From positions 49,601,607 to 49,665,606 of the forward strand of contig JACMZG010001911.1 of the NCBI GenBank assembly GCA_018340805.1: a DNA stretch of 64,000 nt. Direction: 5' to 3'. Source of the stretch: Microvelia longipes. Its lineage: Eukaryota > Arthropoda > Insecta > Hemiptera > Veliidae. The position numbers were made by a program, and so were the translations under genes. The notes below the pieces were generated by a model. It searched no databases, was not told where the DNA came from, and was given only the letters and a program-made list of their open reading frames with translations. This document shows positions 11,178 through 31,611 of this stretch, in pieces. Within the stretch, counting starts at the first letter, position 1; every line of letters starts with the position of its first letter.

Positions 11178-11262
11178 AGTTCCATGATGTAGCAAAGTAT
11201 TTTGCTTGTTACATTTCCTAGGTGTCTCTCGCGCAATTTATATTGTGTCATCGTCAAACATC
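11178..11262 (+). repeat. Fragment of the hammerhead-bearing repeat (opposite strand to the array)
   Basis: Contains AACAGTTCCAT, TTTGCTTGTTACATTTCC and AGGTGTCTCTCG, then a TATATTGTGTCA end. This is the 3' part of the ribozyme-sense monomer. No ribozyme core is present. It lies about 100 bp from the tandem array in inverted orientation. Confidence 0.7.
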
Positions 11263-11533
11263 GACTCTGCGCAGCACTTTCATATAAAGCTCAGTTCATG
11301 CTAATTTTAAAATGATTTAGGGCATTTCCTTTGAAAATCAGGGAAAAGACAAATAATGCTATTGTATCATTTGATACTACCGTGTTTTGCAAAAACATGA
11401 ATAGTTGCACAATTGTAATGGTGCGAGAGACACCTAGAAATGAACGAGCAAAAAAAGCTAATGCCATTGGGAACTCCAAATCAAATCGACATTCATCATC
11501 TTTGATGGCTCGACATAATGTCATTGGTCCCCA

Positions 11534-11572
11534 CTCTGTTCGTTACGTCTAACTCATCAGGGCGCCGACGAG
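11534..11572 (-). ncRNA. Degenerate hammerhead ribozyme (tandem monomer 1)
   Basis: CTGATGA, the GTTA/TAAC stem II and GGCGCC are intact on the minus strand. GAAA has lost one A, and the upstream stem III strand has lost a base next to the GTC. Both are single-base deletions, so they may be real decay or assembly indels. As written, it would not be expected to cleave. Confidence 0.6.
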
Positions 11573-11843
11573 CCTGAACTCACGCTGACTTCAATTAATT
11601 CACGGAGAGTAATGTGAAATATTTACCCAGAGGCGAGCGTACTCTCGTACCGCCATTATGCATGGCAAGCCAAAACATATGTCATTGATACTACCTGTTT
11701 TGCAAAACATGTATAAGTTACACAGTATAATTGTGCGAGAGACACTGGGAAATGTAACAACAAAAGCAAAATTGAGAACATATGGGAACTCAAATCAATC
11801 GACATTCATCATCATTGATGGCTTGACATAATGTCATGTCCCA

Positions 11844-11884
11844 CTCTGTTTCGTTACGTCTAACTCATCAGGGCGCCGACAGAG
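11844..11884 (-). ncRNA. Hammerhead ribozyme, intact core (tandem monomer 2)
   Basis: Read on the minus strand, the order is stem III strand CTCTG (its last G opens the GTC triplet), cleavage after GTC, the palindrome GGCGCC as stem I, the CTGATGA box, a stem II hairpin of GTTA and TAAC around a GACG loop, the GAAA box, then CAGAG closing stem III. All invariant core positions of the hammerhead family are present and both stems pair fully. Predicted cleavage is between 11878 and 11877. Both ends lie in stem III, so this is a type III topology. Stem I is too short to fold as a normal hairpin, so activity may need two molecules. Confidence 0.88.
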
Positions 11885-12154
11885 CTGAACTCACTCTGAC
11901 TTCAATAATTTTCGCGAGAATGTAATGTAAAGTAATTTATCAGAGAGAGCGTCCTCTCTTACCGCATGATGCATGCAAGCAAAACATATAATCATTTTGA
12001 TACTTACCATGTTTGCAAAAACATGTTATAGTTGACACAGTATAATTGTGCGAGAGACACCTAGAAAATGAAACAAGCAAAAAGCAATGCTACATCTGCC
12101 GGAACTCAAATCAACAATCATCATCATTGATGGTCGACATTAATTTCATGTCCA

Positions 12155-12196
12155 CCCTGTTTCGTTACGTCTGAACTCATCAGGGCGCCGACAGAG
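12155..12196 (-). ncRNA. Hammerhead ribozyme, near-intact with an extra base in stem II (tandem monomer 3)
   Basis: On the minus strand CTCTG, GTC, GGCGCC, CTGATGA and GAAA are all kept. Stem II has an inserted C (GTTCA instead of GTTA), which can bulge out. Stem III ends in CAGGG, so one pair is a G-U wobble. Predicted cleavage is between 12190 and 12189, which is 312 bp from the site in monomer 2. Confidence 0.72.
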
Positions 12197-12204
12197 TTTA
12201 TTCG

Positions 12205-12347
12205 TTCAGGTCAGGCTCAGAGTGGAATGACAATATGTCGAGCCATGCAATTTGATTGACGAATGTCTCGAATGAGGAACAGTTCCAGATATAGCATTGC
12301 TTTTGTTTTACATTTCCTAGGTGTCTCTCGCACAATTATTCACCTGA
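12205..12347 (+). repeat. Plus-oriented ribozyme-repeat monomer fragment with the hammerhead deleted
   Basis: The sequence runs from a TTCAGG block and CAGGCTC directly into AGAGTGG and then the usual CGAGCCAT, AACAGTTCC and AGGTGTCTCTCG blocks. The ribozyme core that should lie between CTC and AGAG (junction near 12218/12219) is absent. It sits head-to-head with monomer 3 of the array. Confidence 0.65.
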
Positions 12348-12497
12348 AAACAGATATCTATAGAGAGAACTTGGATTTCGGAAGTCTAGTGTGCAAACAA
12401 GTTATGTTTTATTTACCTCCGATGTATTAAGTAGGAAAATCAAAACGTTCTATTTTCGTAATACATTCTAAATGTAAATGTTTAAATATGGTTACCA

Positions 12498-12845
12498 ATT
12501 TAAAGTCTAGTTATTCTAGGAATGTTTAAGCCTGTCAAGCTCTAGAACTACGCGCCGCTCTGTACGGCGGTCCATTATCGTAAAACTAAACACTGCATAC
12601 AGACAGACACTGTTTTGAAACTACTTATGAAATATTTAAAAACACGCTGAAACGGATAGATTAATAAAATAAAGAAAACGGATTTTATGAGATTAATTAA
12701 TCTCTTTAGAATCTTAACTTTAAATTTTTAAAGTTCGAGTTAGTTTCTAGGAATGCTTAAGGCATGTTTAAGCCTCATAGAAACTACGTGCCGCTCTATA
12801 TATACGGCGGCCGTTATCTTAAACTTGAAACCTTGCTTACCCACT
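12498..12845 (+). repeat. Two diverged direct copies of a ~110-bp repeat
   Basis: TTAAAGTCTAGTTATTCTAGG with GCGCCGCTCTGTACGGCGG at 12498-12605 recurs as TTAAAGTTCGAGTTAG with GTGCCGCTCT and TACGGCGGCC at 12729-12840. Each copy contains a GCCG and CGGC hairpin. The spacing is about 230 bp. Confidence 0.6.
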
Positions 12846-14320
12846 ATTTAACAATATAGTTGCTCTTCTCACTCGAATGACTTAGTAAGAACACTTTATA
12901 AATTTATTACATTATTATATTATTATATAATAATATTATTACATTAGAAATTTTAATTGTTTTTTGGGTTTTTTTTTTAAAAACAAAAAATTAAAAAATT
13001 ATGTGCGTATGTGCATTTTTTTTTAAAAAGCTTATCAGTTGGTCGTATTTTAAAGTATCGATTCCCTTACCAAATTTCCGTTCCTATTAATCCGTTTGAG
13101 CTCATTCTAATTCCGTTACCTGTCAAACAATCAGAAGAGAAAGACACCATACAAATTAAAATTTTACAGGGCGATATATAAGATTGACTGGCTTTTTGTT
13201 ACCAACTATACAATCATTAGTTCTTAGATCAGAAACGAAATCCTAGTTTCGATAACCTAGTTGCCAATTTTGTGGGGTTTATATTCACATTTTCTTATAC
13301 TTTATGGTATTGAAGTAAATTATAATTAAAAACAAGAGGCCGCAGCTGCCGCGCTAATTGCTTTGAAACCATTAGTAGAAAAAGCTACATTTCCAATTTG
13401 GCTTCGGTTTTAATTAATTTCGTCACTATAATATCCGATACTGTTTATCTTATAATTAATTCACGTGGATAAAAAAATGTGTACAGTGAAAAATCTTCGA
13501 TATTCTTAATTTTATTATTTAATCATTTAATATCTATAAATTTCTTCCACTGACATGTATATAGGAAAAAGTTTTCGTTGGCATTCAAATCCAAGATGTT
13601 AGATTTCACCTTAATTATCTGTTTTTAGGTGTTTTGACTTAAGAGTGATTTGTCTAGTTTTATCCATACGCTAGTAACTTTATCATCATAGGCGTATAAG
13701 CTAGAAAGTTTAAAGCTTGCTACGAAAACCAAAACACCTTTATGTCCGGTGTGCTGTCCAGAAAAAAAAATATGATTCAATATACCTTTTTTAATAACAG
13801 GAACAAATCTCAAGATTTAAAACTCAATTACATCGTAGAAAAATGTAGGCTAATTGAAAAGCATTCGTGTAACTTTTAAGTGAGGTAAATACACATTCTA
13901 AGATTTTAACAGCATTAGTTTAATTTCATTGAATGCCCTACTACTAAATAATACGATATATATTATTTTTACGTACGTATAATTAGTAATACATCGATAA
14001 TACATAATTACATTCGAATAATACATAAAGGATACGATAATACGTAATGAGAAAAAATTGTGTAGGAGCAATAGGAAAACATTGTCGCAAACAGAAAATT
14101 CAGTAGATCTAAGACACTAGATATAGCTAAGCCAACAGAACAGATTTAGTTAAAAGCATTTTGCGATTAACTAAAATATTTTAGTTTAAGGAGTTTGTTG
14201 ATCAGCTAAAGTTTTCAGTTTAAGTACTTTCAGTGAGTCAAATAACATTTTTGGACATAGCTAAAAGGATCAAGTTACTTTAACTAACATTGTTAAGGTT
14301 GTTAGTACGAAGGAACTAAC

Positions 14321-15263
14321 NNNNNNNNNNNNNNNNNNNNNNNNNNNNNNNNNNNNNNNNNNNNNNNNNNNNNNNNNNNNNNNNNNNNNNNNNNNNNNNN
14401 NNNNNNNNNNNNNNNNNNNNNNNNNNNNNNNNNNNNNNNNNNNNNNNNNNNNNNNNNNNNNNNNNNNNNNNNNNNNNNNNNNNNNNNNNNNNNNNNNNNN
14501 NNNNNNNNNNNNNNNNNNNNNNNNNNNNNNNNNNNNNNNNNNNNNNNNNNNNNNNNNNNNNNNNNNNNNNNNNNNNNNNNNNNNNNNNNNNNNNNNNNNN
14601 NNNNNNNNNNNNNNNNNNNNNNNNNNNNNNNNNNNNNNNNNNNNNNNNNNNNNNNNNNNNNNNNNNNNNNNNNNNNNNNNNNNNNNNNNNNNNNNNNNNN
14701 NNNNNNNNNNNNNNNNNNNNNNNNNNNNNNNNNNNNNNNNNNNNNNNNNNNNNNNNNNNNNNNNNNNNNNNNNNNNNNNNNNNNNNNNNNNNNNNNNNNN
14801 NNNNNNNNNNNNNNNNNNNNNNNNNNNNNNNNNNNNNNNNNNNNNNNNNNNNNNNNNNNNNNNNNNNNNNNNNNNNNNNNNNNNNNNNNNNNNNNNNNNN
14901 NNNNNNNNNNNNNNNNNNNNNNNNNNNNNNNNNNNNNNNNNNNNNNNNNNNNNNNNNNNNNNNNNNNNNNNNNNNNNNNNNNNNNNNNNNNNNNNNNNNN
15001 NNNNNNNNNNNNNNNNNNNNNNNNNNNNNNNNNNNNNNNNNNNNNNNNNNNNNNNNNNNNNNNNNNNNNNNNNNNNNNNNNNNNNNNNNNNNNNNNNNNN
15101 NNNNNNNNNNNNNNNNNNNNNNNNNNNNNNNNNNNNNNNNNNNNNNNNNNNNNNNNNNNNNNNNNNNNNNNNNNNNNNNNNNNNNNNNNNNNNNNNNNNN
15201 NNNNNNNNNNNNNNNNNNNNNNNNNNNNNNNNNNNNNNNNNNNNNNNNNNNNNNNNNNNNNNN
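14321..15263. other. Assembly gap (943 Ns)
   Basis: The run of N is unbroken and its true length is unknown. An open frame reported across it is an artefact of the gap. Confidence 1.
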
Positions 15264-15471
15264 TGTGGAACTTGTATGAAGGCACTGTACAGTCTGACTG
15301 TTGCCCGACTGAATATTTCGTTAAGACACGTATAGCTATGTCTATTTTAGTTTGTTATATCTCTCTTTATAACGGAAAAGTTATAAGAAAAACCGTCTTA
15401 GATTTTCTTAGATCTTGTTCTGAACAGAAGGCATATTATACTAGTAGAATGAGCGTGAATGGAGTCCATCA

Positions 15472-15739
15472 TAAGTAATAAAAGAAAAGAAGTCTCTCCA
15501 CAAAACAAAACTTTATTGGCAAAGCGCTTTTAACCTAACTAGAGGCCATCATCAGTGCAAAACCGTTGAGATGTTAAAGAAGTAGAGAAGTGAGTCTATG
15601 TTTTCTTACTAGGTATTAGAGTCAGACTAATACTAATTTAACATCTCAACGGTTTTGCACTGATGATGACCTCTAGTTAGGTTGAAGCGCTTTGCCAATA
15701 AAGTTTGTTTGGTGGAGACTTCTTTTCTTTTATTACTTA
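15472..15739. repeat. Foldback element with TTTGCCAATAAAG arms, copy 1
   Basis: Left arm 15472-15579 and right arm 15637-15739 are complementary: TTTAACATCTCAACGG, GCACTGATGATG, TTAGGTTGAA, GCGCTTTGCCAATAAAG, and GGAGACTTCTTTTCTTTTAT in order on the right. The 57-base loop has ATGTTTTCTTACTAGG. The loop is in the opposite orientation in the copy at 59770-59990, so inversion has occurred between copies. Confidence 0.78.
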
Positions 15740-16284
15740 GAAGACATATTGTACAGAGTGTGTAGTGTGTAGTCATTGTATTGTGTAAAGTACAAAATAC
15801 ACTTATTTTTAGAGGGTATATAATGTTAAATTTATTGACTAGTAATGAAGCATAGTCAAGTAGCACGTGTGATGAAAAGTTTTTTTAAAGTACATTTATT
15901 CCTTTGAAAGAGAAAAGTGTGTCCTATAATTGGAGTTAGAGCCCTCGATCTTATAGGAGGGGATATTTTTCATTTTGTTTTGGGTGCATTAATCTCTAAA
16001 TTTATAGGGCTGGCACATCAATTTATTAACACTTTACTGTGAAGTACATGACCAAACAACCCTAAACTTTATGAGGTAGACACGACCATAAAATTGTTTA
16101 TTGGCTCAAAATTTGCTTCAGGACAAAAGGAGTTTTTGAAAGCAATAAAAAAATAAAATACAACAAGGCGTATGAAAATGAGAATATAAAAATAGTGAAA
16201 TGTCAACATTGAAAATTTTTTGTGTAATTATTCCCTCGGAATAAGAAACCCCTTAGGTTTTAATTCGAAGTTAATTGTCATGTT

Positions 16285-16420
16285 GTTGTTTAACTCCCGA
16301 GGCTAAGCTGAGGGAGTAAACACATGAATACCTCAGCTTCGCCTTGAGAATTAAATTGCTCTGGTTCCCTCTGCTTTTGCCTTAGGAACCAACTAACTGC
16401 TCAGGGGAATAGTAGCTTCT
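16285..16420. repeat. Dispersed repeat shared with 59640-59780
   Basis: AACTCCCGAGGCTAAGCTGA, ACCTCAGCTTCGCC and TTGCCTTAGGAACCAAC correspond to blocks TTGGTTCCTTGGGCAAATGC and AACTCCCGAGACGAATCTGA near 59645 and 59755. The order suggests a partial inversion. Confidence 0.45.
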
Positions 16421-17339
16421 TTACTACCTTGGTGTCTAAATAACTATTTCGATGTAATAACGGTATTTTTTTATTCGGTTTACATTCCTCGTATTAGGGT
16501 TAATTATTAATTCAAATTCAAATTCGTATTAGAAATTAAACCCCAATTTTTATAATTATTAAAATTTGACTGGAACACTTTTAATGGTTATGTTAAATTC
16601 CCCACGAATAGTGACTTAGTAACGTCAATAATATTCTTTTTATCATAATCTTTGCTCATGTATAATAACTTCCTTAATAACGAAACAGCTTTAATTTTAG
16701 ATATATTTAAACCGTCACTAACAGGTTTACCAATATTACTCACAAAAATAATCATTTCCAGTTAAATTGAAACAATACTAGAAGGATTTAAATACCAGTC
16801 CATTTTGTGTACGGTTAGAGGAGGTTAGTCATAAGTTGAGCAATCACCCGGTGTATTGCTAACCTACTATCTTGAAAAATATTACTAATTTTTGTTGTAA
16901 ATCTTAAATATATTAATGAATTATTAACAATGTAAATTACTATATTTTAGATATTACGCAGTTTTACTTAATTTATGACTATTTAAGTTTTACTTTTTTA
17001 TTTACTATTTTTAATTTATTATGAATTAATTTATTGCTAATATTGTAATAAATTAAGTTTAATTTTTTTAATATAAATTAAAATATAATGAACACTTTCT
17101 AGTCATGACATTAAAGTAAATAACATTTTTTAAGAGATAGAATGTTAAAAAAACAGGTTAGAATTAGTAGTTAATTTAAACAGAAATTCGTAAATTAAGA
17201 TTAAAAATAGAAAAGTATGTTTAATACTTATGTATGTGAAGGTTACCAATTAATTATTTTAGACCTTTGGTTCAAATCTGTTGTACTTGTATGCATCAGG
17301 TTAGTACTCTAGAGTCTAGAGCCTCATATCATCAGTATT

Positions 17340-17865
17340 TATTGACGTAATCAATACAGGGATTCCACCAGTAATTAAAGTGGGGACATGAGATGTTAGA
17401 CTATAGCCAGAGGCAGTTAATCTTTAATTAACCTCTGACTACAGTCTAAGTTTATGGTTTAAGATGATTCATGATGTTTGATAAACATATTTAATATAAA
17501 GATCATGTAAGTTAAATTTATTTTAGTCTGTTTTTTGTTATTTTCTCCTCTTTTTTCTAAAATTAAAATCTAATTCGGCACCCTTGAGATCAGCTGCACA
17601 ATGAAGCGAGAAAAGAAAAGTAATTGAAACGGAATAAACTATAATTAACTTACATGATCGATATATTAAACATTAATATGATTATCAAACATCTAAACTA
17701 ATCTTAAACCCTAAGGGTTTAAGACCCTAGTTATTAGTCTACTACTGTACTACTAGTTATTAGACCCTAGTTAGAGGTTAGCTGATTAACTGACTCCTGC
17801 TATAGTCAAACATCCCTTGTTCTTATTCTAATTAGTTGTGAGATCCCTGTATTGATCAATATTGT
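17340..17865. repeat. Diverged inverted repeat with ~165-205 bp arms
   Basis: Left arm 17340-17505 has AATCAATACAGGGATTCC, GACTATAGCCAGAGG and GTTTGATAAACATATTTAAT. The right arm 17650-17865 has complements of each in reverse order, including GATCCCTGTATTGATC. Identity is moderate. The loop includes TAAACCCTAAGGGTTTA, a local palindrome. Confidence 0.6.
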
Positions 17866-18284
17866 CCATCAATATTGATCATCTTTTTAGATAACATCTA
17901 TAACATTATACGCTGATGCTATTGGTACAAAGGTTGCTAACAGAGTTGGACCGATGGTCCAAAATAATTAATTGTTCACTGTACACTAAATTCAGAGAAT
18001 TGAGCATTACTTTTTGGAATCAAATCTTTATTGGTTTCAAAATCGTTAAGCTTAAACATTAGTTTACCTTAAGGTGTGACAAAGTAATTGAGTTCTCTTT
18101 TTTCGGGTTAGATTATCTATAAAAAAATGTGCTTATTCTATTGTAGTGGACTTCATAAAAGCAGAAATGTATATCTAACTGTTCTTAGAGTCAAGTATAA
18201 ATAAAAAATTAAAAAAAAATAAAGTATAGAATTCCCTGTTGCATATTGGGAGATATCAAAATTGGTTCCACGACGTGGCCTTCT

Positions 18285-18761
18285 CAAGGATCTTGAATAA
18301 AGGAGATAACGCATTTCTGACCCATGGAAGTTGTATGAGATGGAGAAATAGGAGCAAACTTACCTTCCCCTTAGTTATAATGATAGAAAGGCGCCAAAAC
18401 ACAGGTTATGTAGCAAGGTTGTTGAGTTTTCTTCTCAACTTTTTTCTGTGCTTCTCGTGATTGTTACATTTTCTGTGCTTGTTAAGTCATTCGTGCTTAT
18501 TTATTTGGACATATTTTGCCACTTTAGTGTGTGATAATTTAAGCGTGTTTTGTTATAACCTTCTTAAACAATAAAGAATGGGAAACCATTAAGAGGTAAG
18601 TTTGCCTCTAAAATTTAAGTCCTGCGCTGTTGTAAGAATTGTAAGCATGCGCAGTTATTACCAAACATGTGTAGTTGGTTTTTGACGTGTGTTTCGTAAT
18701 TAGTCACTTTTTTGTGTGGCAAATCGACTTAGTGCGTCATTCCCTTTATTCAAGATCCTTG
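18285..18761. mobile_element. Non-autonomous hAT-type MITE, copy 1
   Basis: Terminal inverted repeats begin CAAGGATCTTGAATAAAGG and end with the complement. Flanking 8-bp direct repeats are GGCCTTCT and GGCCTCCT, one mismatch apart. An 8-bp duplication with CAAGG ends fits hAT transposons. The interior has no transposase and includes GGTAAGTTTGCCTCT-type sequence shared with copy 2 at 29698-30207. Open frames across it are incidental. Confidence 0.85.
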
Positions 18762-19359
18762 GGCCTCCTGAATTGAACTCTATCACAGAAACTTAATGTC
18801 ACAGAATACTAATTATGACTTAACTAATGTCACAGAAACTTTTTCTGGTAAGTGTTTTCACAAAGAGCAACTTTTGTTCGGTATAACGTCTTGGTAGAAC
18901 TGGAAACAAGCTATACATAAAACACTACTAATCGTTTGTGATTATTAAATTGACGAGCGTGTCCAAGAAATATTACAATTTTAACTTAAGTTCTAACATT
19001 ATGGTTAGAACTTATCTTTAGTATATTATATACTATAGATAATTAGTATTAACTTTTGATTGGAAATTAGTCTTTTTATGCAGTTCTAACTCTAATAAAC
19101 GATCTATTTAAGTTCCAAGCAGATACAGTATCTCTTCTGAGGGATTTAATGAAGAGGATGAAGTAAGCTAAGGGGAAACTACAGCTTGCATATTACTTAC
19201 TTACTAAACTGGTATCACGCTCTGTAATCGAAGCTTTGTCGCGTTTGCTTTCGTCTTTCTTGTTTCTCTATCAAACAAACTGTTTATCAATCCCTCCTAA
19301 ATAATTATATCTAAATACTTTATCTCTTTATCTAAGTCTGGGCCCAGAGTCTAGATCTA

Positions 19360-19475
19360 TGGTCTGGATCTACCCATCGGTCAGGGACCTTCTGGTTCTT
19401 CCTACTTAACTTTTTTTACAATCTCGCCTTCCCTTCTCATTACATGGTCATACCAACAAAGTCTTCCAGTCTTAA
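19360..19475 (-). pseudogene. Decayed non-LTR retrotransposon tail, RTE-like reverse transcriptase C-terminus
   Basis: Read on the minus strand from 19475 the translation gives WYDHVMRREGEIVKKVK, then after a frameshift GRTRRSLTDG. This resembles the conserved end of RTE-type LINE proteins (WxGHVMRR followed by GRPxxRWxD). Stops and a frameshift show it is dead. No other part of the element was recognised. Confidence 0.6.
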
Positions 19476-20506
19476 TTTAATTAAAACTGCACAAATTATA
19501 TACAACATACATGTAATTTGTATATTTCATTATGTATTCAAAAATCATAACTACTTTATCCCAACCAATATCGTAAAATTTTACGTCAACCACTAAACTT
19601 AATGAGTATTTTAATATTTTATTTAATTATGTTTTACTATTGAGAACCTTATTAATAAATTAATGTTAAAATTGTTAAAAGCTCTTAAAGTAATAATACT
19701 TCAGTACAAATACCTATTAGTTAATATTTATATTTTTACTAAACAAATACAAAAAACACCGTAGAGAGATTTTAAAGGATTTAAACATTTAACTACTATC
19801 ATAAAACATGATCAGTAATTAGCTGTATAGTAAGAACTTGGTGCTTTAAATTATGTTTATGTATTTTAAACCGTTAAATCTATAAATAAATAAAAACTAA
19901 TAAATATAAGTTCTTTGAGGTTAGGCAACTATTAGCAAGTCATTTATAGTGCAATAGAAAAGAAGACACTATACCTATATTTTCTTTGCTATAAAATAAA
20001 TAGTGTTAAATGTCATAGGTCTTGATGATTGGGGTTGGAGTCGAGGATAGACCCCATCTGCACTGCAACTGGAAGTCTATTTGTACAATAGACTTCCGGA
20101 CTTTTGGTTTGATTACGTTACTATTTTATTTAGCATTGGATCCTTGTTGCGATTAAGTTTTCTTTAAGTCTTAAGCTCTTTTCTCTAGGGAAGAAAGAAA
20201 AAGCAGATTTTTTCCCTAATTCTAATAATTTTTCAAATATATCCCCAATATACCCTATCAATTTTGGCTCCCTCGGCTAAGTTAATTTTTTAAGTCTTAA
20301 AATTGCACGCCCCTAATATTTTGTCACTATATATGCTCTGTATCATTTGATAGTACCGAGTTTTGCAAAACATGAATAGTCGACGCAATATAATTGTGTG
20401 AGAAACACCTAGGAATGTAACAAGAAAAATGCAATGCTACATCTGGGAACTGTTCCATCATTCGACATTCGTCATCATTAATGGCTCGACATAATGTCAT
20501 ATCCCA

Positions 20507-20547
20507 CTCTGTTTCATTACGTCTAACTCATCAGGGCGCCGACAGAG
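20507..20547 (-). ncRNA. Hammerhead ribozyme, near-intact (left arm of inverted pair)
   Basis: On the minus strand the motif keeps CTCTG, GTC, GGCGCC, CTGATGA, GAAA and CAGAG. One change turns TAAC into TAAT, so the stem II pair next to the core becomes G-U instead of G-C. Reduced activity is possible. Predicted cleavage is between 20541 and 20540. It faces the intact plus-strand copy at 20768-20808. Confidence 0.78.
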
Positions 20548-20767
20548 CCTGAGCTCACTCTGACATTAAAATTAAAATTCCAAGGAATATAATGTGAAGT
20601 ACTTACCAGAGACGAGCGGTGCTCTCTTACTGTCATCATCGGTAATATCAAATGATATATGTTTTGCTTGCCATGCATGACGGCGGTAAGAGAGCACCGC
20701 TCGTCTCTAGTAAATACTTCACATTATATTCTTCGGAGTTTTAATTAAAGGTCAGAGTGAGTTCAGG

Positions 20768-20808
20768 CTCTGTCGGCGCCCTGATGAGTTAGACGTAACG
20801 AAACAGAG
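20768..20808 (+). ncRNA. Hammerhead ribozyme, intact core (right arm of inverted pair)
   Basis: Plus-strand order: CTCT then GTC (20772-20774), GGCGCC, CTGATGA (20781-20787), GTTA, loop GACG, TAAC, GAAA (20800-20803), CAGAG (20804-20808). Stem II is 4 bp and stem III is 5 bp, all Watson-Crick. Predicted cleavage is after 20774. The 41-base motif matches the 11844-11884 copy on the other strand exactly. Confidence 0.9.
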
Positions 20809-21469
20809 TGGGACATGACATTATGTCGACCCATCAATGATGACGAATGTCGAATGATTGAACAGTTCCCAGATGTAGCATTGCATTTTCTAAGTCTCTC
20901 TCGCACAATGCTATTGATCATGATAACTTTTGATTACTCTTTTACCAGCTGCTTTAAAAATTAATATCATTGACTTACTTAGTCAATGATATTGACTTAT
21001 TATCGTTTGTCAACCTACACTATATGCATACTCTGAGTTACTCTCTATACTAAGTTTAATGCATAGTTTTGCGTTGATATTGTCTTTAACGTGATACTAC
21101 CAGTAGTTCAATAACTTGTTAATGTTACATTGAACTATACAATAGATGAAGTTTAAATCTAGAAGACTTTAGTTAAGTTACCTAGTTCTTTTGTATTTAG
21201 GTTTGGTATAGTGTTGCAATGTTTTAGAAATAATACTCTACTTCTACATTACATGTATTTAAAGCTTGTAACGTAGCTGTGTAATGTATAGGGTGATATT
21301 ATATAAATAAGAATAACTGTATTTACCACTGTCCCGTTGTCTTTTCACAATGTATAAACAAGTAATATAATCAACCTATCGATCAGATATGCATTCATTT
21401 TGATTTAATTTATAATATTAAGTATACTTTTTCGTTTTTATCACATTGTTTTCTTTATTTTTATAGTTT

Positions 21470-22264: not shown

Positions 22265-24249
22265 AAATCGAACAATAAGATTAAACTTGACCTCTTGTTG
22301 ATCAAATACATGACTACATGCGTGCCAAATTCCAATGTGATCCTAATATTTTTCCGCATAAGTTTTCCAACTTTTTGCTGAGTCCTTTATTAACTACGGC
22401 AAAAAAAGTTTTTATAAACAGGCATCTGTCTAAGAAATCAAACGTTACGTACTGCTAAGGTACATTATGTAATGTACATAATGAGGCTGTGTCTTTATTA
22501 TAATTATATTTGGTTTTTATTATGACAACATTACTTAGTAGTTGAATTATAAAGTCCAATTATATTTATAATACTTAAATTTTAACTAACTTACTTTTTA
22601 CAGTTTTAATGCATAATGTGGATTTGAATTAAATGAAGATTACGGACAGTTTTGTCAGAATGTTGATGCAAAAAGTAAAACGTTTCTTATTTTCACGGCT
22701 CTTGCGGGTATAAATTAATTTATGAATCAGTCTGGGTCTTTCCTCTTAGAATAGTTTATAAAAATATTCCTTACAAAGCTAATGCATTTAAAAATACATT
22801 TTTAACTCTGTACTGACGAATTAAATATTTTATGATTTTTATAAATTTGCGGCTTAACCAATTTAAGCACGAGTAAACTGGGAAAGAAATGTTTAATTGC
22901 AGTAATTATTCCTATTAGCAAGGATTGTGTATACTTGTATAGTTTACTCCTTGCTATTAGTATATTAGCATTTGTACTTTGCTTTTCTGTCTCCTAATTT
23001 TGGGGAAGATGTGATAGCAAAAAATATAATACCAACTTTCTTCATCGGACATCGTCAAACGTGTCAGTATCTACACATCCGAATAATCAAAATCAGTTAT
23101 AATTAACTTTTAATTATTTTATTTATAAAAATCATAACAATATAAAATGTCTTGTGTTAACAAAGTAAACCATTATACTGCTGTTAATTATTAATATTCC
23201 AGTATATTTATATTATTTTTAACTTCTTGTTATTTTTTAATTTAATTTTATGTTTTTTTAATAACTCCATTATAATTATATTATTTTGGGTCATTACATC
23301 TTAAATAATTCCTTAAAACCAGTAAATATTGAAATTTTCGTAAAAAAATAAGTGCCTAGTAATTAGTCTTGTTAGTAAATGTCCTTGGCGTAATTACTGT
23401 CATTTACAAGTAAATAAGGCGGTTTGTAGTTCTTGTCATTTTATTCATTTTGGTCCAGCAAACAAATAATGAGTCCCAATTATTTGTTATTTTATGTTTT
23501 TGGATTTCATTTTGGTAATGTTAACTGAAAGACCTTAAAAACCCAATCTGAATTATATTATTCTTATTCATCGAAATAAGGCTATTTTGATGAACTAAGA
23601 AACGAGCTGTCCGGTTTTTGAATTGAGCTTTATTACTTAATATTTCTATTTTGAAGTTCTATCAACGCGCTGGTCATTTAAAGCTTTTGGAACCACTGAT
23701 TTAAACCGGTTAAATATACTCGGTGTAAAATTATTGTAAAGACCTCTGGACAGCTAATAGTTTTTATAGTTATTTTGCTGTTTTAAATTTAAATATTTAA
23801 CATGCAAACTGATTGCATTTTTATTGCTGAAAGCTGCCAAGTAAATTTAAATATAAATAACTGGAGCCAGACAACTATGTGAGTTTGCTGTATGAACACA
23901 ATGCATTACATCCAATTTACTTACATATGCGTTTACTTTTGATTCTATAATCACCTATATCTTTACTTTGGTATTGTAGAGGTTTGTCTTTACTTCAAAT
24001 CCCCGAATAATATTTCATCATTAAATCTTAGAGAATTTTATTAGGGAAATTTTATTAAAACACGCTCCATGGCCACAACGATGGGAACGGCTTCATGGCC
24101 ACATGGTTGTTTTTCATGGTACTAGTTTGCCACGACATAAGCGAATTTCCAAATATATTGGTGAAAACGTGATTTGTTTACTTATTGTATGTATGTGTTA
24201 TGTGTAGTAATTTTTGAAGTTTGAGATTAATCAAACATCTTTTTGAGGT
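22265..24249. other. AT-rich non-coding DNA
   Basis: Nothing recognised except a small inverted CATGGCCAC pair near 24068-24105. Confidence 0.45.
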
Positions 24250-24299
24250 AGTATTTTGATACTACCGAGTTTTGCAAAACATAAATAGTTGATGTCTAG
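24250..24299 (-). repeat. End fragment of the hammerhead-bearing repeat
   Basis: Matches the outer block only: TTGATACTACCGAG, TTTTGCAAAACATAAATAGT. The ribozyme is not included. It is followed by unrelated CA-rich DNA. Confidence 0.6.
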
Positions 24300-24312
24300 A
24301 AACAAAATCTCG

Positions 24313-24368
24313 AACATACACGCATACCAGGCACACACACACACACTCACATACATACATATATATAT
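24313..24368. repeat. Short CA and TA microsatellite
   Basis: Interrupted ACACACAC, then ATATATAT. Confidence 0.7.
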
Positions 24369-26124
24369 TTTTTTTATTTAATTATTATTTATTTATTCTT
24401 AATCAGGGAGCCTCTCTCTTTTAAAAAATGACACCTCCCCTCTCCATGACTCTCTCTCTCTCTCTTATTCAATCTCTATTGTACAGACTTCATAAGCTCA
24501 TTTTTTGAGAATTTACTGAAATAACGTTTAATTTACTTAGATATTAGTTGTATAGGTGAGTGAAAAATTCGTGAACAGAAGATAGAATTCGAAAAATATC
24601 TCTAATTTTTTTTGTAGTCAAATAAAATCCCTTTATCGATTATTTGTATAGTTCTTTGTGAGCACCCTCGCTTGAAAATTGCGTATACATTTTAAATTTA
24701 TTTAGTTATACGCTATATTAACCTTTTTATGGCTTAAGTCGCTAAGATCTTAGGCATTAAACAATTAAGTTCAGTTTTTTATAGAAACAAAATAACTCTC
24801 TTTTTTTGTGGCATTGGTCTACTAGGACCATACAGCCATGGAATACTTATTTTATACTTTTATGACTTGAATAAGTAATAAAAATGTTGATAGAAAATAT
24901 TAAAAATAAAAATAAAATAATTTATTGATTAAAAGAACTTTTAATATTATGGATTAGTTATTATTAATATAGTTTAATACTCTCATTTTTAAACTATTTA
25001 ATAAACTAAGCCAAAGTTGTTGCATTTTCTATATGATTTATTTTTAAAGTCTCTTAAAAAATGTTAACAAACTTTTAAAAATACACAGTTATAAAATTGC
25101 TATAAAACTACTCATTAATAGTTTATAACTCTAATAACACCATCAATAATCTTTAAGCGTTCAAATTTATTGCTAATAAACATTAAACTGAAAAAAAAAT
25201 TTACGCCATTTGTTTTATAGATGAGTTTATAAATCGTTTTGAATTATGCGTGTAATTTACCGCTTACAATATTCAAGTGAATAAACCTTAGTAGAAAAAC
25301 TGGTTCACAACGCGTGCGGTTGGTTTGGATCTCAATTTTATTTTATTACATAATTTAATAAAAAAAATAAATATATGGTTTCCATACGTGTAGGTGTTCT
25401 AGTTGTCGCAATCGATTGGGCTTTAATAATATGTATTGAAAATGTTTTTCTACTTTTTTCCCCTCCATGAATTTATGCGAGTATTACAAATTATAGGCCT
25501 GTAGGCAATAATCAGGCTACTCCTGTAATTCCATATAACATATTTTATAAACTATAATTTAACTGTTTTAACGGCATTTTTCAGCTATTAACCTCATAGG
25601 TGGAATATTAACCACATTTTGTGTTAAAATCTTATGTGTGAGGAATGAAATAAAATCAGATTTATATATCATAGTGCAAAATCCATTTTGCTCTGTAATA
25701 ATAAATAAATAAATAAATAACCTTTAATAAAATCACAATAAATAATATCATCTTTATAATCATGCAAATTTTTAATATTACATACAAACTTTATAATGAT
25801 TTATATCGGCTAATGCCGAGGTATCCCGCTAGGGTTGAGTTACTAATGCTAATGTAATAAATAAATTAATAAATTAGTCGATAAGTATATTTAATACCTT
25901 CATATTTAATATAATTGATAAAATAAAAAATATATAAATATTGAGTTATAAATTGGTAAATCATAAATGCTCTGTAATATTAATAAATGCATTTTGCACA
26001 AAGTGTTTGTAATTATATTACACCGAGATTGGGTATATATCTAAGAACAAATCTAGTATTCAATAAAAGTTAAATCTATTTCATTTAGTACTCTCAATAA
26101 GTTTTTACTCCATCAAAAAAGGGC
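24369..26124. other. AT-rich non-coding DNA
   Basis: A (CT)n run lies near 24450, and AATAAATAAATA occurs near 25704. No gene or named element was recognised. Confidence 0.45.
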
Positions 26125-26172
<48 letters not shown>

Positions 26173-26203
26173 TATATATATAATATAAGTGTGTGTGTGT
26201 ATA
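26125..26203. repeat. (TA)n then (GT)n microsatellite
   Basis: TA run with short AAT breaks, then a brief GTGTGTGTGT. Confidence 0.9.
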
Positions 26204-26246
26204 GATAGTATAATCATAATATGATTACAACATCAGATATTGTAGG

Positions 26247-26350
26247 CTATATTATTTGATACTTCCGAGTTTTGCAAAAGATGAATTGTAAACACAATAG
26301 GAATTGTGCGAGAGACACCTAGGAAATATAACAAGCAAAATGCAATGCTA
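26247..26350 (-). repeat. Fragment of the hammerhead-bearing repeat
   Basis: Contains TTTGATACTTCCGAG, a TTTTGCAAAAGATGAAT variant, GTGCGAGAGACACCTAGG and AACAAGCAAAATGCAATGC. It stops before the ribozyme. ATATTA flanks both sides, but this is too short and AT-rich to count as a target duplication. Confidence 0.65.
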
Positions 26351-26989
26351 ATATTACTTTAAATTTATGAAAATGTTCAAATATAATACATGGTAATATA
26401 TTCTATATTTATATACCTATATACATAGAGATATATTACTGGATGCCCTATTGGTTGAATTTTGAAACATCAAAACAGTAACCGGAACACCTTCGATTAT
26501 TATTATAATTAAATTAATAGAGAGAATGAGAGAAACACTTGATTTTAAAAATTTAAATTATAAAGGAGCTGTCCTTCTTAAAGGATTGCTAAAACACAAA
26601 GCATACTTAATCTATCTTATTGTCTCTAAAGACAATTTTATCAAATTATTAATTTATACATAATTATATTAAATAATTACATTAAAGTTTTAAAATTTTA
26701 CATATATACATCTAAATAAAACTACAATCATTAGTAAATATAGTTATTTATAATACCTAGTGGGTCTAAAATTATATTTTCACCTAGGGGTCTAAGAAAA
26801 TTTTGATCTATGCCGATCTTGTCAAAAAATAATTTAGTTTTTAGTATAATGGTTCCTCTAGAACCAAACCAAAGTCCGTAAATACAGTAAAATACAGTAA
26901 CCTATATAATAGAACGTATATATTACGAAACAAAGTGTGGAAAACAGACGAAAAGTTATTTATTATAGCCTAAACTCACTATTAGAGGA

Positions 26990-27085
26990 GGTTTTAATGA
27001 GATTGCACACAGCCCTTGAGAGCCCCAAAATGATGTTTCAGGACTCTTAATACATTAAGATAGGCTATGCCCCCTCTAGTATATA
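26990..27085 (-). repeat. Dispersed repeat, copy 2 (inverted relative to 8195-8300)
   Basis: On the minus strand it carries TACTAGAGGGGGCATAGCC, AGTCCTGAAACATC and GGGGCTCTCAAGGGCTGTG. The two copies are about 80 percent alike by eye. Confidence 0.65.
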
Positions 27086-27386
27086 TCTCTGTGTATATTT
27101 TATTTCTAAATTTTTTTATAACCTTTCAGGAAGGTTAAAATCGTATTTTATTGTGAACTTGGCCTGAGTCTCAGTCAAAACTGACATTTTACAGAACAAT
27201 GCATACAAAGAACTACATTCAGAAAAGAACTCTTAGACTTTGTAGAAAGTATAAAATGTGTAAAAAGTATCTCCTCTGGAATATTTATCTTTATTAACAA
27301 ATAAATGAAGTATTAGCATTAATGAACGTAAAGGTCACCGTCAGAGCATAACAATCAAATAAATATAACATATAAAGAAAACATTG

Positions 27387-27720
27387 TCTGCCTCCGTTGC
27401 TGTGAACGTATATGCTCTTGGTTTCGGTTCCGGAAATCCGGGGTTCGCAGCTCGGGCTATGCTCTAAATTTTTATGAATAGTAAAAATAAATAAAAATAA
27501 AATGCCCGTTTAGAGTATCATCATCAGGGTATTTACCCTGCGGGAACAATCTTAGGTGGTAGTATCCACTAATCTCCAAGTATTAATTAGAGTTGGCGAA
27601 ATCGTTTTAATACAAATACTATTAATATAATCTTAGAGCATAGCCAGGGCTTCGAACCTCGGATCTCCGCGGTCGAAATCGAGTGATTATACGATCACGG
27701 CCACGATGGCAGACTTATAT
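27387..27720. repeat. Inverted pair of tRNA-Ser-like SINE sequences
   Basis: On the plus strand 27387-27470 has GCTCTTGGTTTCGG, AAATCCGGGGTTCGCAGCTC and GGGCTATGCTCTAA. On the minus strand 27640-27716 has GCCATCGTGGCCGTGATCG, CACTCGATTTCGACCGCGG and GAGGTTCGAAGCCC then TGGCTATGCTCT. The minus copy has D-arm, anticodon-arm and T-arm blocks resembling tRNA-Ser. Neither is a complete tRNA. Confidence 0.6.
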
Positions 27721-28660
27721 GAATAGTATTTTTATTAAAAACAATTTTACCAACTTTGATTAATACTTAAAGTTTTGTGAATTCAACCCTCCTCAGATGG
27801 TTCCCGGAGGGTGAATACCCTGAGTTGGATGACCCTTCAACAAGATTTTTATTTTTAATATGAAATTAACTGGATATGTAATAATAATGCTACTAGACAA
27901 ACAAAAAGTAAAATAATAAATGATATTCTTCTATTCGTTTTTGAATTTTCGCACGAACAGAAAAGAATCCTTTGTTTTGAATTTTCGTTTTCATTTGTCA
28001 TAACCCTTAGACTGGAATTCAATATAGGTCAGTTTTTCATTTTTCTATTTTTATAACTGAAAACTATTTCATAACGAGTTATTTTCCATTATGGATTGGG
28101 TTTCTCGAGAAACTCATTAAGTCACTTATAATCTGAATTTAATTAGTTTTAAATATTGGCTACTAGTATTAGTAAATATTTATAAAATGTTTAATGAACT
28201 ACGTATGCTTCCGCGGTTGCAGTAATCAAACAAATTGACGTTGTAATGTTACACTAAAACATTATTTTGTGTTTTTATCCGTGATTTCATGCATCCCTGA
28301 AGATGGATCCCACAGTTTACGCGACACGTTAAATTTATCCTCTACATTGACGCGGTCAATACGAAGAAGCCTGAACCTTTAAATTTGGATTTTTCTTTTA
28401 AATTATAGTTGTATATTTATTTCTCATGTTATAACTTAAAGTAAGCATACTTTAGCGTAGGGTACACTTTCAAGTATATTAAAACCGTCAGGTCTTAAAA
28501 TTAAAAAGTTTAGATAATTAACATCATTGTCATTGTTGTTGTTGTTAACTTCCGCTGTATAAATAAATAAAGGTTTAATTAAAAAAAAAGTTTAACACAA
28601 TATACCAAATATATTTATTGTAAAATGATAAGTAACTACGATTTGATATAAAGTTACTCT

Positions 28661-28712
28661 TATTTGAATATGCAAGGTTTATAATATAATATGCATACAT
28701 ATATACATCCAA

Positions 28713-28759
<47 letters not shown>

Positions 28760-28815
28760 TTGGATGTATATATGTATGCATATTATATATATAAACTTGC
28801 ATATTCAAGTAATGT
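28661..28815. repeat. Palindrome with TA-repeat centre
   Basis: GAATATGCAAGGTTTATAA, ATGCATACATATATACATCC on the left mirror the right arm at about 28760-28812. An (AT)n run fills the centre. An open frame across it codes for low-complexity Tyr and Ile only. Confidence 0.7.
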
Positions 28816-29697
28816 GTATATATATATATATATACAAAATGTAGCATATTAATACATTTTTTATTATATAAAGTATAAAATTAATATATTTTTATATATT
28901 ATTCTGCCGTTTATGTATTTGAAAATGAATAATGCGCTTAACATTTCAAAAAAATATCTAAGTTGTACAGTACAGTTACATTTTACATTGACCCATTAAA
29001 TATTTATTTATAACAAACGCAAAAAATACATTTCTAAAAATAATCATTCTTTACAGGTGGTATTTATACTTTGTATTTCAACAACTCATAAATCCCAACT
29101 ACATATTTTGTTGCTCATTAATTGCACATTCATTTCACATGTCTATGTTATTTTCAAAGCTTAAAAAAACAAATAAAATGTTTAACATCCCATTATGTTT
29201 TGAATGGGGTACTTAAACCGACGTCTTTAATACTTATACGTGCTTTGGGCTTTAAAAAGTTTTTTTTCAAATAAAAAACAAAAGCGCCAAACATCTGTCC
29301 TAACAATGGACTCTTTTTGATCAAGATTACTCTTCGTGTTCATTGTTTTTATGACTTGTTATTGTTTGTCGTGTAAGAAGCATTTTATTACTAATTATCT
29401 TTTATAATAAGAATTAGCAAGTTGTTATAAAAATGTTAATTAATTCGAAGACACCTACACTTATTGTTTATATATTATGTGTAAATTATAACCAAATATT
29501 TCTTAAGTTTAGACAGTCATATTTTAACTTTACAGATTTTACAATATATTTCTTTAATTGAAAATATATAAAAATTATATAAGAACAAAATATGTATAAA
29601 TTTATGTTTATAGTTATAATTGTGGATCTTTAATAATACGGATAGAGCCTATTGTACCTTTCCCATTTAAAAAAAATCGCTTGTCATCAAGGATCTT

Positions 29698-30207
29698 GAA
29701 TAAAGGGGGATGACACATTAAGGATTTTTTCTGACCCCATGGAAGTTGTATGAGATAGAGAAATAAGAGCACACTTACCTTCCCATTGTTATAATGAAAA
29801 AAGGCGCCAAACGCAGGTTATGTAACAAGGTTGTCGAGTTTGCTTCTCAACTTCCTTCTGTGCTTCTCGCGATAGTTACATTTGTAGTGCTTGTTAAGTC
29901 ATTTGTGCTTATTTAATTTTATATTTTGGACATACTTTGCCACTTTAGTGAGTGATAATTTAAGCGTTTTTATAACCTTCTCAAGCAATAAACAATGGGA
30001 AACCATTGAGAGGTAAGTTTGCTTCTACAATTTAAGTCCTGCGCTGTTGTAAAAATTGTAAGCATGCGTAGTTATTACCATGCATGTGCAGTTGGTTTTC
30101 GATACGTGTTTCGTGTTGAATTCTCTCTATTTTTTGGTTTTCGATGGGGTTACTTTTTTGTATGGCAAATCGACTTAGTGCGTCATCCCCTTTATTCAAG
30201 ATCCTTG
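29698..30207. mobile_element. Non-autonomous hAT-type MITE, copy 2
   Basis: Same terminal inverted repeats as 18285-18761 and collinear across about 480-510 bp. The 8-bp flanks are CTTGTCAT and CTTGCCAT, one mismatch apart. The interior carries small indels relative to copy 1, so the copies are not very recent. Two overlapping open frames here are not supported as genes. Confidence 0.87.
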
Positions 30208-30821
30208 CTTGCCATCAACCTTATACTTGCATAACTAGCAACCCCTCTGTACCCTCTTTACCGTCAGGTAATAAACAACTATTTTCTATTTTGCTGAATT
30301 TATTTAATTATTTGCTTTTTGTAGTATCATGGACATTTAACCCCAAGGTACTTAATTAATGAATAGAAGCACTTAAATACGGAGCATAGAAAGCAATTTA
30401 ATTCGGCATAAAAAGAATATGAACACATACAATTTTTTGAAATTAATAACGAAAATACAAACTTTATGAGATTTCATTTTTTTTAACATTATTGTTGTCT
30501 GAGTCTCTCTACTTTATTGAAAATCGGTTTAGCATTTACGATTGGTATTTAGGTTGGCTGCCTTTAATAGGTTTTAACGCTTCTTTACAAAACCTTTATC
30601 AATTTAGTGGCAGCGTAAAGTAAATTTGTTTTTTAAGTTATAGAATACGGATATTAGTATTTTGGTGCGGTTTCTATCTAGAATCCTAATTTAACTTATT
30701 TTTACTATTTCAATTACCAAGATCAGTCCGTGCAAAAATATTAACTTATTGGTAGACACATATTCAATATAAGCATTGCTAACCCAACAATTGCGTGTTT
30801 TACCGTTCGACTAAATAATTA

Positions 30822-30852
30822 ATTTTAGATTGTATTATAGACAATCTAAAAT
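30822..30852. other. Perfect 12-bp hairpin
   Basis: ATTTTAGATTGT and ACAATCTAAAAT pair around a 7-base loop. It is AT-rich, so it may be a chance event. Confidence 0.5.
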
Positions 30853-31151
30853 CATTGTAAACTCTGACTTTATTGTAAAACTATCAGTTCAGAGTAGCTA
30901 AATTTGTATTAGTTAGTTAAAGAGAGTTATTGTCAAGAATCTTCTTCTAAGGTGAAAACAGAGGAATAAGTGTTTTAACTCCATCCAATGTCAATCATTG
31001 CTCACAAATTCACTGAAGTATAATAATAATAATAACATACTGAAGTAATGTTAATATTATTTATCACAATATTAAGAAATTAATATTATCATATATAAGT
31101 CATTTTATTTTTTTTAAAATTACTTAGTATTGCTTAATGTCATCTGACTTA

Positions 31152-31611
31152 ACACAATATAATTGTGCTAGTGACACCTAGGAAATGTAACAAGCAAAAT
31201 GCAATGCTACATCTGGGAACTGTTCCATCATTCCACATTCGTCATCATTCATAGCTCGACATAATGTCATGTCACATTATATAAAAACAAATGATACATG
31301 TTTTGCTTGCCATGCATGATGGTGGTAAGAGAGCACCGCTTGTCTATGATAAATACTTCACATTATATTCTTCGGAATTAATTGAAGGTCAGAGGGGGTT
31401 CAGGCTCTGTCGGCGCCCTGATGAGTTAGACGTAACGAAACAGAATGGGACATGACATTATGTCGAGCCATCGATGATGACGAATGTCGAATGATGGAAC
31501 AGTTCCCAGATGTAGCATTGCATTTTGCTTGTTACATTTCCTAGGTGCTCTCGCACAATTATATTGTGTCAACTATTCATGTTTTGCAAAACTCGGTAGT
31601 ATCAAATGATA
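31152..31611. mobile_element. Inserted hammerhead-bearing element with 12-bp target-site duplication
   Basis: The element begins inside the family's outer block (ACACAATATAATTG), runs as a short minus-oriented arm to about 31280, then as a plus-oriented arm with a ribozyme at 31405-31445. It ends in GGTAGTATCAAATGATA. TCATCTGACTTA occurs immediately on both sides (31140-31151 and 31612-31623) without mismatch. Variable, ~12-bp duplications fit target-primed insertion by a LINE or Penelope-like enzyme better than a cut-and-paste transposase. No protein is encoded. Confidence 0.75.
31405..31445 (+). ncRNA. Hammerhead ribozyme, core intact with one outer stem III mismatch
   Basis: Same layout as the other copies: GTC at 31409-31411, GGCGCC, CTGATGA at 31418-31424, GTTA/TAAC stem II, GAAA at 31437-31440, then CAGAA. 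The outermost stem III pair is lost (C opposite A), which leaves four pairs next to the core. Predicted cleavage is after 31411. It sits in an insertion flanked by a 12-bp direct repeat. Confidence 0.85.

Follow-up and report, generated by a model that had tools for sequence, protein, structure and literature searches.

Six sites in the genome of a heteropteran bug, Microvelia longipes (Hemiptera, Veliidae), look like hammerhead ribozymes, and the question is what kind of ribozyme they could be and what carries them. The window analysed here comprises 64,000 nt (GCA_018340805.1, JACMZG010001911.1:49,601,607-49,665,606, forward strand). The initial annotation had listed six sites on both strands with a common hammerhead layout, two of them perfect, three with one or two tolerated changes and one broken. 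All six are present as described, and the sequence of each site agrees with this grading (Table 1). The layout consists of CTCTG ending in GTC, GGCGCC, CTGATGA, a GTTA/TAAC hairpin with a GACG loop, GAAA and CAGAG. The invariant core (C3UGANGA, GAAA, A15.1-U16.1 and the NUH cleavage triplet) is complete in five of the six copies, while GGCGCC and CTGATGA are identical in all of them. Along the strand the order is stem III, cleavage site, stem I, core, stem II and again stem III, i.e. that of type III. Stem II has 3-4 bp and stem III 5-7 bp; stem I is just GGCGCC, enough for 2 bp when paired in cis or 6 bp when paired in trans. A type I reading was ruled out, as only 6 nt lead from GTC to CTGATGA and stem I therefore cannot be the open stem. 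By inspection, the remaining four of the ten GGCGCC sites in the window carry no hammerhead.

Regarding chance, which had been called very unlikely, the judgement stands, except that the six sites are copies of one repeat and not independent. A type III descriptor (stem III of at least 4 bp, stem II of at least 3 bp, stem I of at least 2 bp) finds five sites in the window, and at least one site in 3 of 200 and in 24 of 1500 dinucleotide shuffles. With stem III raised to at least 5 bp the window again has five sites, as compared to 9 of 1500 shuffles. The resulting chance figure of about 0.006-0.016 counts one origin of the motif, because the sites are copies of each other. Divergence from the consensus is 11/247 (4.5%) in the motif and 241/1528 (15.8%) in the flanks, with the related copies treated as independent, and it is lower in the motif in every one of the six copies. 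Among 219 non-overlapping windows of that width none matches this conservation, and no other stretch of the repeat unit is conserved so well. Shuffle counts and conservation together rule out a chance match.

A search with Rfam covariance models had been proposed as a check in the initial annotation. At the gathering threshold none of 4227 families matched. Below it, RF00008 (Hammerhead_3) matches five of the six sites at 30.4-37.0 bits, all under the cut-off of 48.5 bits (E 0.00024-0.018 over 64 kb), and gives no match at the sixth. Further sub-cut-off matches (microRNA families on simple repeats or hairpins, and single snoRNA, leader, thermometer and CRISPR-repeat families) were disregarded as irrelevant. 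Standard pairs fill 94.9% of the 78 pair cells as compared to 33-58% for slid structures, a comparison that favours our structure since it was read from these same sequences. There are no compensatory changes in the 13 pairs, and pairing is no higher than in column shuffles. Of the three stem substitutions, those in u3 and u4 retain a wobble pair (U-G or G-U), and that in u6 costs just the outermost of six pairs. The core, stems II and III, the type III order, the RF00008 matches and the conservation make a hammerhead family the best reading of the sites. The hammerhead motif in this repeat is real, and it departs from known hammerheads in stem I.

The sites are not dispersed stand-alone ribozymes. 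Each occupies positions 111-151 of a repeat unit that is about 318 bp long and contains no gene (GC 41.5%, window GC 28.6%), and forms one internal module of a tandem and inverted, retroelement-like repeat. The repeat occurs as a tandem array of 2.7 copies (11365-12196, period 312 by TRF), as a head-to-head pair and as a singleton with a 12-bp target-site duplication (TSD). Copies in the array are about 14% off the consensus and therefore not recent. The initial annotation mentioned neither the membership in the ~318-bp repeat nor the reduction of stem I to GGCGCC.

Table 1. Hammerhead cores, repeat units and associated features in the window (identities are to the unit consensus; cleavage positions are predicted)
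Feature	Position	Strand	Details
Hammerhead core u1	11534..11572	-	broken: GAA for GAAA (one base lost), stem III 5' strand one base short
Hammerhead core u2	11844..11884	-	perfect; cleavage 3' of C at 11878; RF00008 37.0 bits
Hammerhead core u3	12155..12196	-	two tolerated changes: extra C inserted in stem II, stem III with A-to-G that leaves a U-G pair; cleavage 3' of C at 12190; RF00008 30.4 bits
Hammerhead core u4	20507..20547	-	one change, C11.1 to T (G-U pair); cleavage 3' of C at 20541; RF00008 31.6 bits
Hammerhead core u5	20768..20808	+	perfect; cleavage 3' of C at 20774; RF00008 37.0 bits
Hammerhead core u6	31405..31445	+	one change, which removes the outermost C-G pair in stem III; cleavage 3' of C at 31411; RF00008 35.3 bits
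Solo inverted-arm fragment	11175..11250	+	unit 204-278; 90.8% identity
Repeat unit u1, 3' end of tandem array	11365..11680	-	unit 2-318; 86.4% identity
Repeat unit u2	11685..11990	-	unit 1-312; 86.2% identity
Repeat unit u3	11991..12196	-	starts at hammerhead 5' edge (unit 111); 85.5% identity
Inverted 5' arm of array	12218..12339	+	unit 147-269, opposite strand; 86.8% identity; hammerhead interior skipped at inner end
Repeat unit u4	20341..20639	-	unit 22-318, 3' end at 20341; 92.7% identity
Repeat unit u5, head-to-head with u4	20656..20916	+	unit 1-273; 90.5% identity
Short fragment	24255..24292	-	unit 276-313; 97.4% identity over 38 nt
5'-truncated copy	26250..26350	-	unit 219-318; 91.1% identity; 3' end position as in the three main loci
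Left target-site duplication TCATCTGACTTA	31140..31151	.	12 bp
Inverted 5' arm of singleton	31152..31278	-	unit ~152-279; BLAST match proper 31149-31276; 94.5% identity
Repeat unit u6 (singleton)	31295..31611	+	unit 1-318; 96.9% identity
Right target-site duplication TCATCTGACTTA	31612..31623	.	12 bp

One 3' end position, with the recurrent sequence TATCAAATGATA, is common to four loci, namely the array, the head-to-head pair, the singleton and the 5'-truncated copy. The TSD is present at one of the three main loci; it was not found at the array or the head-to-head pair, and the truncated copy has only a weak candidate. Inverted arms are 92% complementary at the head-to-head locus (20426-20584/20731-20889) and 95% at the singleton (31175-31278/31444-31547). 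When the head-to-head locus is read on the - strand, u5 is its inverted 5' arm. The end sequences of the repeat are palindromic. Such ends and long inverted arms at two loci could belong to a foldback or MITE-type DNA element, moved by a transposase and having its hammerhead-like stretch conserved for another reason. We regard this as highly improbable: the inner extent of the arms varies among loci, yet the 3' end is shared, tandem units and a 5'-truncated copy are present, and the complete hammerhead core would have to be a coincidence of the kind seen in 24 of 1500 shuffles. With its tandem copies, 5' truncation, common 3' end and TSD, the repeat resembles animal retrozymes and Penelope-type retroelements.

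The junction from unit to unit is read through in the array units and in u5 (unit 300-318 at 20639-20657, then unit 1), and over 9 nt only in u6 (CAAATGATA at 31288-31296). The predicted cleavage site is spanned uncut in every unit. Both features would be expected if the template was circular or multimeric. The inner breakpoints of two inverted arms (unit 147 and 152) and the start of u3 lie at the edges of the hammerhead, as if a polymerase had halted at a folded hairpin.

How such a motif could cleave depends on stem I. GGCGCC is a perfect palindrome, invariant in all six copies. Standing alone between the cleavage site and the core, it cannot accommodate a capped stem whose loop makes the usual contacts, and by inspection stem I has no loop of usable size for a tertiary contact between loops I and II. 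Predicted folding of the isolated 43-mer prefers an alternative hairpin, -11.2 as compared to -7.0 kcal/mol for the hammerhead fold, which retains most of stem III but pairs the core CUGA with UUAG. The consensus unit folded as a circle gives the same hairpin, and the pair probability of stem III in folded units is 0.00-0.04 (n=4: u2, u4, u5, u6). The canonical monomeric fold is doubtful, because a normal loop has no space and another fold is predicted to be more stable.

Hairpin loops of 2 nt are strained, and the energy model forbids them. This weighs on the alternative of a monomeric type III hammerhead that cuts in cis without loop-loop contacts, its stem I being extremely short (either two G-C pairs closed by a CG loop of 2 nt or a single pair capped by the tetraloop GCGC). 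The cis fold of the 43-mer is predicted at -4.8 kcal/mol with one stem I pair, the above -7.0 kcal/mol holding for none, and the perfect palindrome is left unexplained. Most type III hammerheads are described with a 6-bp helix I and a loop of 6-8 nt contacting loop II (PMC7936874). We consider cleavage by such a monomer unlikely, even though five sites satisfy the descriptor in cis with a 2-bp stem I and align to RF00008 in cis. Elsewhere in the fold a stem may be very short, as natural hammerheads with a stem II of 2 bp, and once of 1 bp, are reported (PMC3088659).

It could also be that the motif is a relic, i.e. that the ancestral element had a functional hammerhead, that the version with the shrunken stem I is inactive and that the family spreads without cleavage. 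A Penelope element is reported to insert in vitro without need for hammerhead cleavage (PMC11167929), and the sub-threshold Rfam scores, the unfavourable predicted fold, the broken copy and the absent covariation would all fit. Nevertheless, a relic would hardly be the most conserved stretch of its unit, keep the core bases in five of six copies and take substitutions that leave wobble pairs or cost only an outermost pair; we find this explanation rather improbable.

Reduction of stem I to a six-letter palindrome suggests instead that two copies must pair before either cuts. The double-hammerhead fold is predicted to lie at most 2.5 kcal/mol from the best dimer fold for the 43-mer and 3.8 kcal/mol for a two-unit RNA. 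On balance, we lean towards reading the sites as the ribozyme module within a small retroelement, non-autonomous and retrozyme-like, in which a type III-order, dimer-dependent hammerhead processes multimeric transcripts. A stricter form, in which the hammerhead is obligately double, the palindrome is one helix common to two ribozymes, only multimers are cut and the circular monomer is protected, is put forward more tentatively, with confidence falling short of even.

From this anatomy we infer a cycle of transcription, dimerisation, cleavage, circles and a helper enzyme. Tandem copies or circular templates would yield multimeric transcripts. Two motifs, in one transcript or in two RNAs, would pair GGCGCC with GGCGCC into a joint 6-bp stem I, with the stems III formed in cis or in trans. 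Each paired motif would then cut 3' of GTC and release unit-length RNA. A single unit, once ligated into a circle, would resist self-cleavage because it has no partner motif, and could serve as template for a Penelope- or non-LTR-type reverse transcriptase acting in trans. Tandem units would arise when the enzyme reads around the circle, and inverted 5' arms when it switches template or primer. It is important to note what counts against this explanation: the sub-cut-off Rfam scores, the rival predicted hairpin, the missing compensatory changes and the TSD at a single locus. No helper reverse transcriptase was seen among the 4 of 26 window ORFs of at least 80 aa that were put to Pfam, where one C2H2 zinc-finger gene was recognised. 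Moreover, the head-to-head locus would yield double-stranded RNA masking both motifs.

Hammerheads known so far to favour dimers, those of newt and Penelope elements, do so through a weak stem III. If our reading is true, dimerisation through stem I is a second route by which cleavage can be tied to tandem copies, as a retroelement borne by circular RNA requires. It would also place a type III-order hammerhead in an animal tandem retroelement, where the reviews consulted describe mostly type I. Since the Rfam models miss the motif at their cut-off, related families in insect genomes may be undercounted. In viral and prokaryotic collections, which say little about insects, the family-specific pattern matched no viral contig. 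The pattern with GGCGCC as stem I matched no viral contig and six bacterial ones, none with a stem II above 1 bp. A looser pattern with any 6-nt stem I has at least 122 instances in at least 120 viral contigs; among the matches listed, five have a stem II of at least 3 bp and a stem III of at least 4 bp, and three of these are one repeated sequence. The family is not described in the top-ranked titles and abstract openings of the open-licence literature on insect, Heteroptera, satellite and Penelope-like or non-autonomous hammerheads or on short or palindromic stem I.

Among insects, a comparison is offered by the pDo500 satellite of Dolichopoda, about 500 bp long. It is likewise repetitive insect DNA with hammerheads discussed in single and double forms, a likeness at the level of description; in the double form two sequences pair their stems I and II with each other while stem III forms inside a single sequence, and stem I varies with some compensatory changes, whereas that of the bug is invariant (PMC2837043). 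Plant LTR retrozymes, subviral circular RNAs, termite and toad HDV-like RNAs and dipterans have type III hammerheads whose strand order, with stem III open, is that of the bug motif, and the typical plant ones share its 4-bp stem II with a 4-nt loop. In contrast, in the known examples described helix I reaches at least 5-6 bp and makes loop or pseudoknot contacts, and plant retrozymes have LTRs and about 700 bp between ribozymes (PMC7936874).

Closer in anatomy are the metazoan non-LTR retrozymes of corals, mussels and axolotl, described as gene-free tandem repeats of 150-450 bp with GC below 50%, one hammerhead per unit and TSDs, when present, of more than 4 bp (PMC7229834). The bug repeat falls within this description, with ~318 bp, 41.5% GC, 2.7 tandem copies at one locus and a 12-bp TSD at one of three main loci. 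Their hammerheads, however, are described as canonical type I with loop-loop contacts (PMC7229834), in contrast to the type III order and palindromic 6-nt stem I found here, and unlike them the bug repeat carries inverted arms at its 5' ends. Small hammerheads of Penelope-like elements (PLE) and Terminons are minimal type I, and dimeric cleavage has been ascribed to them (Lunse et al. 2017; Cervera & de la Pena 2014, via PMC7761336). They too have one stem nearly absent, a proposed dependence on dimers and tandem or partial-tandem repeats. PLE carry an ORF for reverse transcriptase and GIY-YIG between pLTRs, and the bug unit is too small to hold that ORF. Where PLE and Terminon hammerheads lack helix III, the bug motif is the mirror case, with a helix III of 5-7 bp and a reduced helix I. 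If the bug motif does dimerise through stem I, it would mirror, within an animal retrozyme of type III order, the ribozymes of newt and Penelope elements that form dimers through stem III.

All six hammerhead-like sites reported in the initial annotation are present in the window with the layout described there, namely CTCTGT (stem III), the cleavage-site C (C17), GGCGCC, CTGATGA, GTTA-GACG-TAAC (stem II), GAAA and CAGAG (stem III). This strand order is that of a type III hammerhead. The grading of the copies holds as well: two are perfect, the fold is mostly kept in three that have one or two changes, and one (u1) is broken, having lost one base of GAAA and one base of stem III. In the Rfam search proposed as a check, the type III model RF00008 matches five of the six sites, but all matches (37.0, 37.0, 35.3, 31.6 and 30.4 bits; E 0.00024 to 0.018, computed over the whole window) stay under the cut-off of 48.5 bits, and no Rfam family reaches its cut-off in the window. 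We hold with high confidence that the motif is of hammerhead ancestry.

A type III descriptor finds five sites in the window. At least one such site occurred in 3 of 200 dinucleotide shuffles and in 24 of 1500 shuffles of a second set, or in 9 of 1500 when stem III had to reach 5 bp. Since the six sites are copies, this test covers one origin only (about 0.006-0.016). Conservation relative to the rest of the repeat is stronger evidence. Mismatches to the majority consensus are found at 11 of 247 positions within the motif and at 241 of 1528 elsewhere in the repeat, and among 219 non-overlapping windows of motif width not one is as conserved. The mismatch rate is lower inside the motif in each of the six copies, only slightly so in the broken one (7/41 inside versus 59/289 outside, the inside count being inflated by shifted alignment). 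The Fisher p of 2e-7 overstates the evidence because the copies are related. Standard pairs fill 94.9% of the 78 cells in the six copies, as compared to 33-58% in slid structures, a comparison that favours a structure read from the same sequences. Four further standard pair types occur, including G-U at C11.1 (u4) and U-G in stem III (u3). No pair in the six copies has changed on both sides, and 500 of 500 column shuffles reach the observed value for each measure; what we see is thus conservation without covariation.

Only six bases, GGCGCC, connect the cleavage site to the core. In cis they can close a two-base loop with two G-C pairs, or a tetraloop with one pair. The hexamer is a perfect palindrome, invariant in all six copies, and therefore two motifs can share a 6-bp stem I. 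In an energy model that contains no tertiary energy, the double hammerhead of the dimerized 43-mer (the isolated motif RNA) lies 2.5 kcal/mol above the best fold (-29.5 versus -32.0), and that of a two-unit RNA 3.8 above (-191.7 versus -195.5). The isolated motif folded in cis without stem I (-7.0) is 4.2 above its best alternative (-11.2), a hairpin in which most of stem III survives and the core is buried; stem III pair probability is 0.00-0.04 in four folded units. These predicted folds do not by themselves favour the hammerhead. We give dimer-dependent cleavage, in the form of an obligate dimer through stem I, somewhat less than an even chance. Another repeat with two copies (18390 and 29803) has GGCGCC and flanks in common, without a hammerhead core. 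One sequence common to the viral contigs L022, L034 and L085 also has the hammerhead core order, with a 10-pair stem III (wobbles counted), a 3-pair stem II and a 6-nt stem I (GTCTCCGTGCTGATGA); it is possibly coding sequence or another short-stem-I motif.

The motif occupies positions 111-151 of each repeat unit. The unit is written as 318 bp (TRF period 312), and the ends of its typed consensus overlap by 2 nt.

Repeat copies, motif cores (u1-u6, one per unit) and tandem arrays in the window
Feature	Position	Strand	Remarks
Locus 1	11365-12339	-	tandem array, 2.7 units (TRF), inverted fragment at 5' end
Locus 2	20341-20916		pair of head-to-head units
Locus 3	31152-31611	+	one unit, inverted 5' arm
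12-bp duplication	31140-31151 and 31612-31623		TCATCTGACTTA, perfect, flanks locus 3
Truncated copy	26250-26350		5'-truncated
Arm fragment	11175-11250		
38-nt piece	24255-24292		
u1 core	11534-11572	-	broken copy
u2 core	11844-11884	-	
u3 core	12155-12196	-	
u4 core	20507-20547	-	
u5 core	20768-20808	+	
u6 core	31405-31445	+	
Tandem array	33188-33972		50-bp unit, 15.8 copies
Tandem array	1844-2250		75 bp
Tandem array	39010-39368		149 bp

Loci 1, 2 and 3 and the truncated copy have a common 3' end at unit position 318; other ends lie at unit 313 (38-nt piece) and 273 (u5). Target-site duplications were looked for at loci 1 and 2 and none was found, and the truncated copy has a weak candidate at best. 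The shared 3' end combined with differing 5' ends, the tandem arrangement, the duplication around locus 3 and the inverted 5' arms argue for reverse transcription and not for a transposase. It is likely that the repeat is a retroelement type, probably formed by target-primed reverse transcription, for which the template would have been circular or multimeric RNA. Array units run across the unit-to-unit junction. So does u5, where unit 1 follows unit 300-318 (20639-20657), and so does u6, for just 9 nt. The units also cross the cleavage site uncut, and a ligated circle or an uncut multimer would be expected to give this pattern. Two inverted arms end inward at unit 147 and 152 and u3 begins at unit 111, points that all coincide with hammerhead edges; the locus 1 arm omits the hammerhead interior. 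These breakpoints, from just two loci and with imprecise BLAST ends, hint at a polymerase halting at the folded hairpin. At the head-to-head junction of u4 and u5 there is a hairpin (20605-20711), through which a locus 2 transcript would be long double-stranded RNA.

Elsewhere, a long near-perfect hairpin (15533-15682; arms 36-37 nt, loop about 70 nt) has a sub-threshold Rfam microRNA-family score on both strands and looks like a small foldback element. An assembly gap lies at about 14320-15280, and 943 N were counted in the window. When four ORFs were put to Pfam, only the open two-finger C2H2 zinc-finger ORF at 45961-47244 (427 aa) was recognised. It has relatives in several Heteroptera; among the best 120 of 713 matches, the best named ones are from Rhynocoris (46% identity), Rhodnius (42%), Lygus (44%) and Cimex (44%), and another relative is at 81%. 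On these relatives the host is most probably a heteropteran.

PMC7229834 describes animal retrozymes as tandem repeats of 150-450 bp with GC below 50%, type I hammerheads and, where present, target-site duplications above 4 bp. The element in this window seems to operate in the manner of these retrozymes, but its hammerhead is not type I. Minimal type I hammerheads without helix III, said to cleave as dimers, are described for Penelope-like elements in PMC7761336. The reviews consulted place type III mostly in plants, and one of them lists insects among the organisms whose elements carry type III hammerheads. According to PMC7936874, helix I of a type III hammerhead usually has about six pairs, with a loop that contacts loop II; the paper also reports dipteran hammerheads of this type whose helices are long, and a negative search of hemipterans for that long-helix architecture. 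Among the open-licence papers listed in literature searches we found no counterpart in print of a GGCGCC stem I. Compared with RF00008 hammerheads, the present motif agrees in core and order but lies below the Rfam cut-off and lacks the loop contact. Given this mixed fit to retrozymes and hammerheads we regard the element as a new variant and file it in neither family.
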